DNA of 61,298 nt. It comes from a virus. Position 1 is the first letter of the stretch. Every line of letters starts with the position of its first letter. Shown piece by piece: positions 8,917-58,530 of the stretch. The notes beneath the pieces are model-generated. The model worked only from the letters and a program-made list of their open reading frames with translations, ran no database searches and was not told the DNA's origin. The stretch is from positions 1 through 61,298 of IMG/VR virus record IMGVR_UViG_3300010885_047852; one strand, 5' to 3'. Made by a program: the position numbers and the translations under genes.

Positions 8917-8922
8917 GAACAC

Positions 8923-8967
8923 ATGTTCTCTCTACAACACCTCACCGATAGACTCAAGAACCAATGA
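8923..8967 (+). CDS. 14-codon micro-ORF coupled to the wHTH gene
   Basis: ATG at 8923 opens a 14-codon frame whose TGA overlaps the ATG of the winged-helix gene (ATGA, 8964-8967). The downstream gene lacks a good ribosome site of its own, so translation of this micro-ORF could deliver ribosomes to it. The micro-ORF's own site is weak (ATGAGAAC). It may be a leader peptide instead of a functional product. Confidence 0.35.
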   Translation: MFSLQHLTDRLKNQ

Positions 8968-17793: not shown

Positions 17794-18048
17794 TCAAGGT
17801 TCGATCAACTGTGACAACCGTACCTGACCGAGCGATGCTTTCAACGATCGGGCCAGTTGGTCATCCGGTAGACGGTCGCAGGCGAGTCGTGTCAACTCAA
17901 GGAGATCGTCCAGTTGGTCGGCTCGAACAAGTACAAGTCGTCCTTCAAGCGCGTTCATAGAGTCCATATTACTCTTGCTCACCAGCGCCTGCAAACATCG
18001 CGCAAACCTGCCTAACCAGTAGGCGATCTCCAACACTACGCCGGTCAT
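17794..18048 (-). CDS. Hypothetical protein, 84 aa
   Basis: ATGA overlap with the upstream gene fixes the start at 18048; ATG at ~17967 (MDSMNALEGRL) is an alternative. Helical throughout, Leu/Asp/Arg-rich (VRADQLDDLLELTRLACDRL). No family recognised. Part of the late run. Confidence 0.55.
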   Translation of the reverse strand: MTGVVLEIAYWLGRFARCLQALVSKSNMDSMNALEGRLVLVRADQLDDLLELTRLACDRLPDDQLARSLKASLGQVRLSQLIEP

Positions 18049-54230: not shown

Positions 54231-55790
54231 TCAGGCCGGTCTCATACGTCGCGGCGTGTCAGATTTGATGTCGTTCGGTGAACCCGGATCCCCAACACCG
54301 GGACCAACTCGAGGTTCGTCTGCAGGCGAAGTTGCCGACGGACCAGGCTTCTTCGACCCGACCTTTGCCCAGTCAATCTTGTTTTGAATGTCAAGACCGT
54401 AGGTGGCAAGATACGGGTCGTCGGTTTTGATGCCAACCATGCGCACATACTCCTCGTCCGACGGTGCATCGGTCTTGGAGATACCGGAAAGCCGGCGGGC
54501 CGCATCGTCGGAGATCAGCAGGCGGTCACGCATCTGACGGGAATCCTCAGCAAGGTTCGTCTTTGCTGCAGCATCCGACATGTCATACCAGATCATGCAG
54601 TTCGTGATCTTCCCTGGCTTCATGCCACGGTCCTGCATCTCACGCCACAACACCAGACGAGTCAACGCCCAACACATTGTTTCGATATCGGGCACGATGT
54701 TGACTCGTCGTTCTTCGTCACTTGCCGACCATGCAGACCAATGGTTTGAGTTGGCAGATCCCTGTACCGATGACGGCTGGTTATCCAGGCCGGCTAGCAC
54801 ACGGTCGATGAGTTCGGCACGCAATTTCATGTCGACCTCGTAGATCTGACGGTCGTACGTGATGTGCTTGATCATGTCGGCGTACTGGCCGGGACCGGTC
54901 ATGAAGATCGGTACTGCAGATTCGGGCTGCTCATGGTTTGCGACAGCCCATGTTGCTGCCGAGATCAGCCGGTCAAGCACCTTGTTGTCGTGGAACTGTT
55001 CGTTTGCTTTGCCGGTGGGTTGACCGGTGCGGATGGTGGAGATTTCCGATGGCACGAAGAAAATGCCGTTCAACGCGAACCGTGACAGCAGCTTGGCTCG
55101 AATGTTGAGCGTGAGCAGGTAGAGCAGTTCGCAGGTGACGTCCAGCGAACGCATCGGTGAGTCTGCCATCGCAACAAATTGGCCGGCAGGTCGCCACACT
55201 CGCCCGATGAAGTCTCGTGCCTGCACCGGAACGGTGAGCATCTGACCGTTGCCTTCCTGTGCAGGAAGAAGCATCCGGTTGAACGTCTGGGTCGGTGTGA
55301 ACACTGGGTCACGATCGACACCGACGCCGGATTCGCCGAGGCTGGTGCGTTCGATCTCGTCAGCGGATAGCCAGTCGTAGCCCTCAGGGTCGCCGTCTTC
55401 GTCACGGCACCTGATCAGATAGGCGTCGCCTGGGATCTTCATCAGGGTAAAGAAGCGTTCGATGAACCCTCGAGTGCCACCGTACGGCGACTGAAGCATC
55501 TGAAGGATCTCGTTCTCCACACCACCCTTGATTTCCTCGCCGGATGATCCGTCCTGGTTGCGGCGGACCACACGAAGGTTGGTGTAGCCAGCGACTTTGG
55601 CGTTGCGGGAGATGCCGTAGTGGATTTCGCCGATGTCGCGATACCACTGCCAGCCTCGAGCCGACTTGTTCCGTGTCATTGCTGTCACGGTGCGCACATA
55701 GCGTGTGTCGATCGGATTTGTCAGGTCGATAGGCGCGGTTGAAAAATCTTCGGCAGATGCAGGCCGAAATTGTTTCTTACGAAGTGCCAT
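54231..55790 (-). CDS. Portal protein, 519 aa
   Basis: Forms the dodecameric DNA gate. ATG at 55790 is preferred (CAGGAGCGGTG, 5-nt spacing). Seen: YSPYGGTRGFIERFFTLMKI-type segments (here QSPYGGTRGFIERFFTLMKI), DAYLIRCRDEDGDPEGYDWL, RSLDVTCELLYLLTLNIRAK and ALTRLVLWREMQDRGM, typical of actinophage portals. The C-terminus is Pro/Gly/Asp-rich and disordered. It begins the structural genes, upstream of the protease/capsid fusion; terminase is not next to it. Confidence 0.85.
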   Translation of the reverse strand: MALRKKQFRPASAEDFSTAPIDLTNPIDTRYVRTVTAMTRNKSARGWQWYRDIGEIHYGISRNAKVAGYTNLRVVRRNQDGSSGEEIKGGVENEILQMLQSPYGGTRGFIERFFTLMKIPGDAYLIRCRDEDGDPEGYDWLSADEIERTSLGESGVGVDRDPVFTPTQTFNRMLLPAQEGNGQMLTVPVQARDFIGRVWRPAGQFVAMADSPMRSLDVTCELLYLLTLNIRAKLLSRFALNGIFFVPSEISTIRTGQPTGKANEQFHDNKVLDRLISAATWAVANHEQPESAVPIFMTGPGQYADMIKHITYDRQIYEVDMKLRAELIDRVLAGLDNQPSSVQGSANSNHWSAWSASDEERRVNIVPDIETMCWALTRLVLWREMQDRGMKPGKITNCMIWYDMSDAAAKTNLAEDSRQMRDRLLISDDAARRLSGISKTDAPSDEEYVRMVGIKTDDPYLATYGLDIQNKIDWAKVGSKKPGPSATSPADEPRVGPGVGDPGSPNDIKSDTPRRMRPA

Positions 55791-56226
55791 CACCGCTCCT
55801 GTTCGACGTTTGATAGTAGGCAGCAAACTGTTCGTATGTCAGTACCGCATTTTTGAGGACATCTTTCTGACGCAACGGTTTCGGTTGAAGACCGTCACGC
55901 CAGCGCTCCTCTGCGTACAGCACAGCGAACACATCGGGAAAGAAAGTTGCGAGCCGGCGAAGCGCACGGATGCGCGCAAGGTCTGCTCTGACGACATTCT
56001 TGCTGTTGCTGCGCCGTTTCGCTTTCTTCTTGTGCGTTGCAGGCTGGTTCGCCCCAGGGAGTGTCACCGTGTGGCGTGTGGCGCGTTGCACCACCTCGAT
56101 CTGGCGGAGCCGTGACAGGTCACCCTTCACGAAACACTCAAAGCAGATGCCACCGGTTTGCCATGCGACGAAATCAAGCACCTGTTCTTGACAGGTGGCA
56201 CACGCCTTGTAGCCGGCTATTTCCAC
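55777..56226 (-). CDS. Zinc-knuckle basic protein upstream of the portal, 149 aa
   Basis: N-terminal CATC ... CFEC Cys pairs (residues ~9-12 and ~28-31) suggest a zinc ribbon; residues 65-80 are very basic (THKKKAKRRSNSKN), and the C-terminal half is helical. It overlaps the portal start by 14 bp. DNA- or RNA-binding is plausible. It occupies the slot where a terminase small subunit would normally stand, but I see no terminase feature. Confidence 0.6.
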   Translation of the reverse strand: MEIAGYKACATCQEQVLDFVAWQTGGICFECFVKGDLSRLRQIEVVQRATRHTVTLPGANQPATHKKKAKRRSNSKNVVRADLARIRALRRLATFFPDVFAVLYAEERWRDGLQPKPLRQKDVLKNAVLTYEQFAAYYQTSNRSGDGTS

Positions 56227-56272
56227 ACCGACAACATAGCAGACCGCCGGTGGGGAAACCTTGTGAGACCCG

Positions 56273-56431
56273 TCAGGTACGTTTGCGAGGATTCCATCGT
56301 CCGGTGCGTTTCATACGCTCATATGCCAGGACGGTGCGCCGGCGAAGGCTGCGGTCACGTTCGTATTCGTCAACCACCATCCATACAAGACCGACGAGAA
56401 GTCTCAGATCGTTGCGGTAGGCGTCATTCAT
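56273..56431 (-). CDS. Hypothetical small protein, 52 aa
   Basis: ATG at 56431 (MNDAYRNDLRLL) overlaps the stop of the replication-type gene by 8 bp. One hydrophobic stretch (LLVGLVWMVVDEY) then a very basic tail (RDRSLRRRT ... RKRT). Could be a small membrane-associated protein. No family recognised. Confidence 0.5.
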   Translation of the reverse strand: MNDAYRNDLRLLVGLVWMVVDEYERDRSLRRRTVLAYERMKRTGRWNPRKRT

Positions 56432-57206
56432 CGCGATCACCGCAATCGCAACGGTCAAGTAGGTTGCGTTCGTAGTCGACTGTCTTCCAGCCAGATCCTG
56501 CGCACTCCACGCAGTCAGGATCGAAGCGCACGGTACGCACCTCGGGCAGCGCCGGCTGTTCTGGACGTTCGTCTGCCCACCGGTCGCTGTTCAGCCATCG
56601 CTCAGGATATGGAACGTACTTCTTGTCCTCGTCGGACAGGATCGCCCACTGTGCAGCCATGTCTCGAGCGCCTTCCATGATCTGTGCCACCGTGGCTCGT
56701 TTCAACGCACGCTCCCACGAGCGTCGTGCAGCACCCTTGCCGACACGTTTCGGCCAGACCTTCCAGAACTCATCGAACGCATCAGCAGGGGGCACGCTCA
56801 ACGACAGTTGAGCAAGAGTGTTTTCTGGATGGTTCAAGGACGGTTCGGGTGACATAGCTGTGTCACCCCGTGGCGTCACCGGTGTCACCCCGTTATCGGA
56901 GCGGGGTGTCGTAGATGTCACCCCGTGACGAGGACGATTGATGGTGTAATAGTTCGGCCGGCGATCGTTCCTTGTGTGCATCGTCCCACCAGCATTCGTC
57001 TGCACATCAATGAGCCGGCGGGTCTCCAACGCCACGATCGACCGTTGCACCGTCCGCTCCGACACACCCGCATACATCGCAAGCGTCGCAATCGACGGCC
57101 ACGACCCGCCATCACCATCATGGTTGGCGATGCCAATCAACACCAACTTGTCAGTCGGCGAAAGATCTTGGACCCGCAACGCCCAGGAGATCGACTCAAC
57201 GCTCAT
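56424..57206 (-). CDS. Replication-initiator-like HTH protein, 260 aa
   Basis: Residues ~14-70 are a winged HTH (LSPTDKLVLIGIANHDGDGG, then WPSIATLAMYAGVSERTVQR, SIVALETRRLIDV) of the HTH_36 type found in phage replication proteins. Residues ~143-190 (FDEFWKVWPKRVGKGAARRS, WERALKRATVAQIMEGARDM) recur in phage O-like proteins. The tail has a CVECAGSGW ... DRCDCG zinc pattern. With no phage polymerase or helicase in the window, this protein may load host machinery at an origin. ATG at 57206 follows GAAAGGAAACC. Confidence 0.7.
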   Translation of the reverse strand: MSVESISWALRVQDLSPTDKLVLIGIANHDGDGGSWPSIATLAMYAGVSERTVQRSIVALETRRLIDVQTNAGGTMHTRNDRRPNYYTINRPRHGVTSTTPRSDNGVTPVTPRGDTAMSPEPSLNHPENTLAQLSLSVPPADAFDEFWKVWPKRVGKGAARRSWERALKRATVAQIMEGARDMAAQWAILSDEDKKYVPYPERWLNSDRWADERPEQPALPEVRTVRFDPDCVECAGSGWKTVDYERNLLDRCDCGDRDE

Positions 57207-57232
57207 GGTTTCCTTTCACCGATGCCACGAGC

Positions 57233-57238
57233 TATGAT
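57233..57238 (+). promoter_or_regulatory. -10 hexamer TATGAT (proximal)
   Basis: TATGAT is 5 nt before a GTG at 57244 that opens the same frame as the downstream gene. A transcript from here would run through the 14-bp hairpin at 57267-57312 before the 57364 gene. No clear -35. It divides the intergenic region with the divergent initiator gene, whose start is 27 bp away. Confidence 0.4.
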
Positions 57239-57266
57239 CGACCGTGGCGTGTTGTCCGACCGCCAG

Positions 57267-57312
57267 AGTAGCGACACGGTGGACCCTCCGCAACCCTCAC
57301 CGTGTCGCTACT
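57267..57312 (+). terminator. 14-bp perfect hairpin (attenuator or operator)
   Basis: AGTAGCGACACGGT (57267-57280) pairs perfectly with ACCGTGTCGCTACT (57299-57312) over an 18-nt loop, followed by CCACTTTT on the plus strand. It could end a ~75-nt leader transcript from the proximal TATGAT, acting as an attenuator or making a small RNA. Because the stem is also an inverted repeat in DNA, a regulator-binding site is an alternative. Confidence 0.6.
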
Positions 57313-57322
57313 CCACTTTTAG

Positions 57323-57357
57323 GGCATGTTTGCGGCATGTTTGCAGGATGCTATGAT
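57323..57357 (+). promoter_or_regulatory. Direct-repeat operator and promoter of the 57364 gene
   Basis: Perfect tandem 11-bp repeats GGCATGTTTGC at 57323-57333 and 57334-57344 overlap the promoter: -35 TTGCGG (57330-57335), 16-bp spacer, -10 TATGAT (57352-57357), then GTG at 57364. A regulator sitting on the repeats would block this promoter. The nearest DNA-binding candidates are the ribbon-helix-helix proteins nearby. Confidence 0.6.
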
Positions 57358-57363
57358 GCTGCG

Positions 57364-57651
57364 GTGAGCATGACACCCAACATCAAACTGCCGCCCGGTA
57401 TGAGCCTCAGAGAAACCGAAAACGGATTCGAGGTCTACGCCAACAAAGAGCCGCTCACGAAGACCGTCGCCTTCCGCCTGACCGCATCCGACTACGTCGC
57501 AGCAATGAGCCTGGTCGAATGCTTCCCCGACAAATCATGGGGTGCAGCAATGCGCTGGCTGCTACAAGACGCCACCGTCAGAGCAGTCATCAACGAAAGA
57601 ATCATCAACGTCACCCGACAGCGCAGCGAGAAGACTCAACCGGATGAATGA
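57364..57651 (+). CDS. Probable ribbon-helix-helix-type protein, 95 aa
   Basis: GTG at 57364 lies 6 nt after TATGAT, with no ribosome site, so a leaderless mRNA is likely; ATG at 57370 is an in-frame alternative. Residues ~35-80 (KTVAFRLTASDYVAAM, then a helix-helix region) fit a strand-helix-helix fold. It is the only plus-strand gene in the right end. Its 3' part overlaps the convergent 60-aa gene by 90 bp. It may bind the 11-bp repeats upstream (inference). Confidence 0.6.
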   Translation: MSMTPNIKLPPGMSLRETENGFEVYANKEPLTKTVAFRLTASDYVAAMSLVECFPDKSWGAAMRWLLQDATVRAVINERIINVTRQRSEKTQPDE

Positions 57652-57744
57652 GTTTCTGCTGACACCCAGCCGGCCAGCAGCCTCATCCAGTCGAGTTACC
57701 AACGACATCGGTAGCCAAGCGGAGATAACACGGGACCGGTCCAC
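57562..57744 (-). CDS. Ribbon-helix-helix (CopG/Arc-like) protein, 60 aa
   Basis: RVISAWLPMSLVTRLDEAAG followed by RLGVSRNSFIRLSLLAAL is the strand-helix-helix of CopG-type DNA binders. The acidic C-terminus (DVDDSFVDDCSDGG) is short. GTG at 57744 is preceded by TAGATT exactly 6 nt away and no ribosome site. It converges with and overlaps the plus-strand 95-aa gene, so the two may oppose each other. Confidence 0.65.
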   Translation of the reverse strand: MDRSRVISAWLPMSLVTRLDEAAGRLGVSRNSFIRLSLLAALSGDVDDSFVDDCSDGGVL

Positions 57745-57750
57745 GCGCCG

Positions 57751-57756
57751 AATCTA
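57751..57756 (-). promoter_or_regulatory. -10 hexamer TAGATT for a leaderless transcript
   Basis: Minus-strand TAGATT (57756-57751) sits 6 nt before GTG at 57744. No convincing -35. Part of the pattern of start codons placed at the transcription start in this region. Confidence 0.35.
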
Positions 57757-57782
57757 ACCGGCGGTCTACACGTTGGGCAGCG

Positions 57783-58010
57783 TCACTCGTGGATGAATGT
57801 CTTGTGGACAGTCATGCCACGCTTCGTCGCGAACTTGAACGAACAGTACGGACATTCCCACACGAGAGGAAGATCCTGTCGTTCACGGCGACCCTGACGA
57901 ATCAACCTGATCGCGTCACGCTTCGCACGACAGCATGTCTCACAGCGGCATCCCTTGTTGTAGGACGCAACTCGATGCTCACTCTTCGGACCTGGGGTCT
58001 TGCTCGGCAT
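57783..58010 (-). CDS. C2H2 zinc-finger protein, 75 aa
   Basis: N-terminal half has GCRCETCCRAKRDA, a Cys cluster seen in small actinophage proteins. The C-terminal half is a classic C2H2 finger: CPYC (53-56), F and hydrophobics at the expected spacing, then H69 and H74 (VHKTFIHE). Classic C2H2 fingers are rare in phages and bacteria. A DNA-binding regulator is plausible. Start: ATG at 58010, just after the RHH gene's stop. Confidence 0.7.
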   Translation of the reverse strand: MPSKTPGPKSEHRVASYNKGCRCETCCRAKRDAIRLIRQGRRERQDLPLVWECPYCSFKFATKRGMTVHKTFIHE

Positions 58011-58012
58011 TC

Positions 58013-58162
58013 TCAGTCCTGCCCCTCGCTGAGGGATGCGATGAAATTACGGAGGAATCGATTGCGATTGATGCCGGCACGCCGAACGGCGGCATCCAAT
58101 ACCTGTTTCTCATCACGGGAGATTGCCATCGACACGTAGACGGTGTTCTTTTCCTTGCGCAT
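58013..58162 (-). CDS. Ribbon-helix-helix (CopG-like) protein, 49 aa
   Basis: MRKEKNTVYVSMAISRDEKQ then VLDAAVRRAGINRNRFLRNF reads as strand, helix, turn, helix of the RHH fold. No ribosome site; TATGAT lies 6 nt upstream, so a leaderless start fits. It ends just before the C2H2 finger gene. Very similar in layout to the 60-aa protein at 57562; they may be paralogs. Confidence 0.6.
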   Translation of the reverse strand: MRKEKNTVYVSMAISRDEKQVLDAAVRRAGINRNRFLRNFIASLSEGQD

Positions 58163-58168
58163 ATCACA

Positions 58169-58174
58169 ATCATA
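58169..58174 (-). promoter_or_regulatory. -10 hexamer TATGAT for a leaderless transcript
   Basis: Minus-strand TATGAT (58174-58169), 6 nt before ATG at 58162. A TATCACAATCATAT stretch on the plus strand overlaps it and looks like a palindromic operator, related to the sites at 59752 and 59791. Confidence 0.45.
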
Positions 58175-58179
58175 TCAGA

Positions 58180-58530
58180 TCACGGAACCTTGCTCACCGT
58201 AACGACCACAAACTCTGACACATGGAACATCGGCTCCACCGTCATCACACGCGTCACATCGTCATCGTCCACGACACGAGCATCAACCATCCCATCGATG
58301 ATCGGCTTCAATGTCGCCACAAAGTTGTGAGCGTCACGCCGCCTGTTGTTCTTCACTGGAAGCACCACCTCAATCAGCACACGCCCAGAAACAGGCCGTA
58401 CCGCTCGAGGCAACTGCTGTGCAGCAAAGAACGCTGCCTCCCGCCAGCAGCGCACCATCTTCGCACGCTTCGCCCAATGCATCCGATCGTTCAGATTCAA
58501 CAACTTGTCGGGCGCTTTGAACGTGAACAT
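58180..58530 (-). CDS. RusA-type Holliday junction resolvase, 116 aa
   Basis: Cuts four-way DNA junctions. Length is right for RusA. Seen: MFTFKAPDKLLNLNDRMHWA (start), then NRRRDAHNFVATLKPIIDG with D66 and K75, and VVDDDDVTRV with D88-D91, the acidic catalytic set. ATG at 58530 has GAGGTGGTTGGG upstream and a frame extending to 58704 is not needed. It would resolve intermediates made by ERF or clear branches before packaging. Confidence 0.85.
   Translation of the reverse strand: MFTFKAPDKLLNLNDRMHWAKRAKMVRCWREAAFFAAQQLPRAVRPVSGRVLIEVVLPVKNNRRRDAHNFVATLKPIIDGMVDARVVDDDDVTRVMTVEPMFHVSEFVVVTVSKVP

Follow-up and report, generated by a model that had tools for sequence, protein, structure and literature searches.

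A putative compact control node, with opposing predicted promoters at a terminator-like hairpin, between a lambda-O-like initiator gene and a candidate regulator gene of uncultivated phages

The window analysed here, i.e. the whole stretch of 61,298 bases, is an IMG/VR virus record from an uncultivated phage; distant relatives of its structural genes occur in phages of actinobacteria, among others. A gap of 157 bases (57207–57363) separates a replication initiator gene, read leftward, from a small gene, RHH-A, read rightward. The elements recognised in and around this interval, including three putative promoters named P1, P_O and P_A, are the following.

56424–57206, minus strand: lambda-O-like replication initiator gene with an HTH_36 N-terminus (Pfam and PHROG matches)
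56847–56936, no strand assigned: iteron-like repeats of the GTGTCACCCCGT type, in direct and inverted copies within the initiator gene; candidate origin
57210–57217, minus strand: ribosome-binding site of the initiator gene, GAAAGGAA in minus-strand reading (from the sequence)
57224–57248, no strand assigned: imperfect palindrome of 25 nt (GCCACG/CGTGGC) with the P1 −10 box in its loop
57233–57238, plus strand: P1 −10 box TATGAT, predicted start near 57245
57245–57320, plus strand: predicted P1 RNA of about 75 nt, ending at the hairpin and T-run
57265–57270, minus strand: P_O −10 box TACTCT at the stem base, predicted start near 57258
57266–57313, plus strand: perfect 16-bp terminator-like hairpin (arms 57266–57281 and 57298–57313, loop of 16 nt)
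57288–57293, minus strand: P_O −35 box TTGCGG in the hairpin loop, 17 bp from the −10 box
57323–57344, plus strand: tandem 11-bp repeats, GGCATGTTTGC twice, probable operator of RHH-A
57352–57357, plus strand: P_A −10 box TATGAT, 6 nt before the GTG start codon of RHH-A
57364–57651, plus strand: RHH-A gene, 95 aa, candidate ribbon-helix-helix regulator of a conserved family
57562–57744, minus strand: RHH-B gene, CopG-like, convergent with RHH-A, with its own −10 box TAGATT 6 nt before a GTG

The same upstream layout, together with RHH-A relatives, occurs in eight further distinct IMG/VR records (L003, L004, L087, L007 with its near twin L008, L010, L081, L091 and L092). Counts out of nine refer to the window plus these eight, two of which (L081 and L092) are near-identical in the interval. 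The initiator gene was read adjoining the interval in L003, L004, L007, L010 and L081. As the identity of the RHH-A proteins to that of the window ranges from 63% down to about 30%, unconstrained intergenic DNA would be largely randomised, which makes the comparison of the interval informative. Although most bases differ, its anatomy is kept across the nine records, the order, orientation and approximate spacing of the elements being constant. From the initiator side, this order is a short palindrome with a TANNNT, 20–55 bases, a GC hairpin, half-sites spaced by 11 bp, a TANNNT, 6–7 bases and the RHH-A start. A tenth record, L006, has the palindrome (with TAGAGT) and the hairpin but lacks the 11-bp pair, and its divergent gene, which looks leaderless, is unrelated to RHH-A. 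P1 and the hairpin thus seem to be associated with the initiator gene, whereas the repeats seem to accompany RHH-A. The layout is absent beside other initiator relatives (L127, L129, L134, L135, L153 and others), and the cultured Arthrobacter phage Galaxy has a related initiator inside an operon, without the interval. One of these relatives, L127, faces a different divergent small gene (2375–2501, CopG-like sequence) that also looks leaderless.

The initiator protein matches Pfam HTH_36 (E 1e-12), phrog_270 'replication initiation protein' (E 5e-39) and several further PHROG families of the 'replication initiation O-like' type. At the place that matches the iteron-like repeats of the window, the L003 initiator gene has repeats of another sequence and the L010 initiator protein has a repeated PPPVTSDT stretch. 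The L003 gene (3161–4297, minus strand) is longer and encodes an HNH-like motif, CRSCNKRRGDT, in mid-protein, as if an endonuclease domain had been inserted.

The hairpin was first described as a perfect inverted repeat of 14 bp; it is indeed perfect and is actually 16 bp long, and the CCACTTTT said to follow it is present and ends at 57320. Shuffles gave a best inverted repeat of 5.2 on average and 10 at most, so that the 16 of the hairpin is far beyond chance. The stems of the different records are too different in length and sequence to be aligned; pairing was therefore assessed in each record against shuffles and not as a single covariation count. The hairpin lies above nearly all shuffles in every record, the weakest case being L007, where 15 of 500 shuffles reached it. 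Stem sequences vary between records and pairing within each record is kept, with stem lengths of 8–16 and loop lengths of 7–18; a T-rich tail follows in only about half of the records. In the window, the RNA predicted from P1 folds at −40.1 kcal/mol (z = −7.6), and its predicted length is 69–76 nt in seven of the nine records and 97 in the other two. No minus-strand gene lies beneath 57245–57320 and RHH-A starts beyond the hairpin; the predicted RNA would meet the initiator mRNA at the 5' ends only, leaving the ribosome site uncovered.

According to the preliminary description, all elements face away from the initiator gene. This is contradicted by a minus-strand TTGCGG-17-TACTCT that points at it. 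In all nine records, the minus strand of the hairpin loop reads TTGACG, TTGACA, TTGATC, TTGCGG or TTGCGT; the P_O −10 box is a TANNNT in seven, with one-letter departures in L087 (AAAGGT) and L007 (CATGAT). The spacer is fixed at 17–18 bp while the stem, the loop and the position of the −35 box in the loop vary, which argues that the constraint on this box comes from its promoter role and not from a fixed place in the hairpin. The TTGCGG of the window is a 3/6 match only, and L006 has no recognisable −35 box. P_O is most likely the initiator's own promoter, and its nesting in the hairpin, which had been missed, is the most informative part of the interval.

The two TATGAT boxes reported in the same direction are both present on the plus strand, TATGAT not being enriched in the window (6 found against 10.7 expected). 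The P1 box lies 27–32 bp from the initiator start and is directed away from it, and a TANNNT stands at the matching place in all nine RHH-A records and in L006. The palindrome is centred on this plus-strand TANNNT in 9/9 records, with differing arm sequences, and adjoins the initiator ribosome site in the window, L003 and L004. In the leader of the initiator mRNA it would fold into a hairpin, of which the loop TANNNT could instead be a feature. The −35 box of P1 is weak (TTTCCT in the window, TTGATT and the like elsewhere) and coincides with the complement of the initiator ribosome site, so that conservation there may serve translation. Control of P1 by LexA was considered and dropped, as P1 has no SOS-box match: the 55310–58225 region holds no GAACN4GTTC with one mismatch or fewer. 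Elsewhere in the window (8917–8928), a perfect GAACACATGTTC, of the actinobacterial SOS-box type, lies 36 bp before an ORF at 8964; about one match of the GAACACATGTTC type is expected by chance in 61 kb.

P_A has a TANNNT located 6–7 nt ahead of the RHH-A start codon in 9/9 records, and this short distance indicates that the RHH-A mRNA is probably leaderless. In mycobacteria, a 5'-terminal ATG or GTG suffices for leaderless translation (PMC4633059). With boxes that were first picked by eye and then scored on the same records, and with shuffle tests that overstate independence because the nine records are related, P_A scored 78 against 61.3 for shuffles (above all 1000 shuffle sets), P_O 78 against 63.9 ± 2.5 (sum over eight records, reached by 0/1000 shuffle sets) and P1 74 against 64.3 (total reached by 0/1000). 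As judged from the sequences, the most secure elements are P_A and the hairpin and the least secure is P1.

The perfect tandem 11-bp repeats noted earlier are present, GGCATGTTTGC being found at 57323–57333 and again at 57334–57344. They had been said to cover the second promoter; this holds for its −35 and spacer region and not for its −10 box, since they lie upstream of it. The exact tandem repeat has a shuffle P of 0.002 within its own region and recurs in relatives; the exact 22-bp sequence had no match in viral contigs. A half-site pair YGTTTGC-N4-YGTTTGC, 11 bp apart, is found in the window, L004 and L087, and L003 has CGTTTAC-N4-CGTTTGC; a diverged pair of the GTAKAC type is found in L010, L081, L091 and L092. 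Shifted by 11 bp, the sequence matches itself at 6 or 7 of 7 positions in six of the nine records. The presumed DNA-contacting strand of the protein reads TVAFR in the YGTTTGC group and [NV][IV]SFR in the GTAKAC group; L007 fits neither group cleanly, with a TVAFR protein and the 11-bp-spaced pair GCTTGC/GCAAGC. This co-variation of protein strand and half-site is suggestive, and the position of the repeats makes it probable that RHH-A represses its own promoter. A half-site pair with one mismatch also occurs at 17991–18008 (minus strand), ahead of a possible leaderless ORF (about 54 codons, ending at 17794). A wider regulon of YGTTTGC pairs, comprising this copy and pairs elsewhere in the relatives, was rejected, control counts being equally high.

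The RHH-A protein had no match in Pfam, PHROG or PDB sequences and no relative in cultured phages, and one pass over GTDB genomes confirmed none. In its predicted structure (pLDDT 76), the segment TKTVAFRL is extended and precedes helices 41–52 and 59–90; structure searches with Foldseek and VIA-align returned nothing significant, only weak TCP-domain rows. The ribbon-helix-helix name is thus a candidate label. Profile comparison found no similarity between RHH-A and RHH-B, and the latter reaches 19.9 bits against Pfam RHH_1 (PF01402), for a cut-off of 20.5. The RHH-A and RHH-B genes overlap tail to tail by 90 bp, an arrangement kept in L003 and L004. A TANNNT lies 6 nt before the start of RHH-B (TAGATT, 57751–57756, minus strand) and before that of the next gene, 58013–58162 (TATGAT, 58169–58174, minus strand); both boxes are kept in L003 and L004, which would give a run of leaderless small regulators.

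From the observed sequence elements and their conservation, we infer transcription, termination, interference and binding as follows. P1, located just upstream of the initiator ribosome site, would fire away from the initiator gene and give an RNA of about 70–75 nt that stops at the hairpin. As the P_O −35 box is in the hairpin loop and its −10 box at the stem base, P1 and P_O would be convergent, with starts about 13 bp apart, and each polymerase would cross the other promoter. P1 activity would then damp initiator transcription, by occlusion or by the short antisense overlap of the 5' ends. The hairpin would keep P1 transcripts from RHH-A, which would be made from the separate leaderless promoter P_A. 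The two half-sites, one helical turn apart over the P_A −35 region, would most likely be bound by RHH-A itself, in a negative autoregulation that may also act on P_O from upstream. We favour this reading of the interval as a compact control node, in which the short P1 RNA ends at the hairpin, P_O is counter-transcribed and RHH-A is autorepressed, with a probability of roughly 0.55. The recurrence of the layout in the eight other records despite changed bases indicates that the interval is probably a real control node, and it upholds the core of the preliminary description, a compact node with two rightward promoters, a terminator-like hairpin and operator-like repeats.

That description further proposed attenuation in a leader. 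P1 would make the leader of the RHH-A mRNA, the hairpin would be an attenuator that decides on RHH-A transcription, and the repeats would control the second promoter. The conserved order, with P1 and P_A in the same direction and the hairpin followed by CCACTTTT between them, agrees with this. However, P_A is a separate leaderless promoter past the hairpin in 9/9 records, so that P1 would naturally yield a short RNA stopping at the hairpin; neither an alternative anti-terminator structure nor a leader peptide or riboswitch family came to light, as one stem dominates the folded sequences and Rfam gave chance matches only, none above gathering score; and L006 has P1 and the hairpin with an unrelated downstream gene. 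Attenuation is therefore unlikely. The term 'decision', taken in the sense of lysogeny, finds no support either, the record, which may be incomplete, having no match to a tyrosine integrase or serine recombinase.

P1 may also not be a promoter at all, the palindrome being a hairpin in the leader of a P_O-made initiator mRNA and the large hairpin insulating RHH-A from stray rightward transcription. The retention of the palindrome with changed arms is what is expected of an mRNA hairpin, and P1 has a weak −35 box that falls on the ribosome site. However, the loop TANNNT, present in 9/9 records and L006 at a fairly constant distance from the hairpin, fits a unit made of promoter, RNA and terminator, and the fold of the initiator leader in the window is not unusual (z = −1.1); this explanation is doubtful, while deserving some weight. 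It is quite improbable that the promoter-like boxes are incidental and that the inverted repeats serve at the DNA level as sites for an initiator, partition or repressor protein. Palindromes by an initiator gene could be such sites, and a CCGAG/GCGAG flavour is common to the short arms, but the arms of the large hairpin have no sequence in common in the window, L004, L007 and L087, promoter letters at promoter spacing are what is conserved, and the iteron-like repeats have another location, within the initiator gene.

A further, more tentative proposal is a conserved device that times replication in a group of uncultivated phages. An opposing small RNA would have the initiator promoter embedded in the loop of its terminator, which would couple firing, termination and initiator expression mechanically, and an undescribed family of leaderless autorepressors would lie alongside. 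RHH-A would represent a small regulator family that is absent from Pfam and PHROGs and whose half-sites differ between two clades. The 160-bp unit is testable in reporters.

The ribbon-helix-helix repressors Arc, MetJ and CopG bind short tandem half-sites, about one helical turn apart, over their own promoters. The half-sites of the interval are likewise in tandem, with a spacing of about one helical turn, over the RHH-A promoter; unlike those operators, the candidate YGTTTGC and GTAKAC half-sites belong to an undescribed protein family. The pMV158 plasmid, with CopG and the antisense RNAII acting on repB, also combines a small ribbon-helix-helix protein (here a candidate) and a short counter-transcribed RNA (here predicted) by an initiator gene (PMC4485353). 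The two systems differ in that copG and repB share a transcript (PMC5717011) whereas RHH-A and the initiator gene diverge, and in that the RNA predicted here would overlap the initiator mRNA at the 5' ends only, with the ribosome site uncovered.

The lambda promoter pO adjoins O and faces away from it, and its short RNA ends at tO and lowers the opposing transcription from pR (PMC3985674, PMC5869508); the role of this oop promoter in replication has been revisited repeatedly (PMC3985674). The interval resembles pO-oop-tO in its predicted promoter by the initiator start, directed away and predicted to give a short RNA ending at a terminator-like hairpin, in the convergence of this promoter with the one that would transcribe the initiator gene, and in the candidate origin repeats within that gene, the lambda ori lying in O. 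It differs in that O is transcribed from the distant pR whereas the initiator gene here apparently has a promoter of its own within the terminator hairpin, in that cII, to whose 3' end the OOP RNA is antisense, has no counterpart here, in the LexA site of the oop promoter, with no SOS-box match at P1, and in the separate regulator gene beyond the hairpin. Setting aside the cII antisense role and the LexA site, the interval is probably a functional analogue of pO-oop-tO. Such an independent-looking case in distant phages, in which the convergent promoter would sit within the terminator, would suggest counter-transcription next to the initiator gene as a general means of timing replication in phages.
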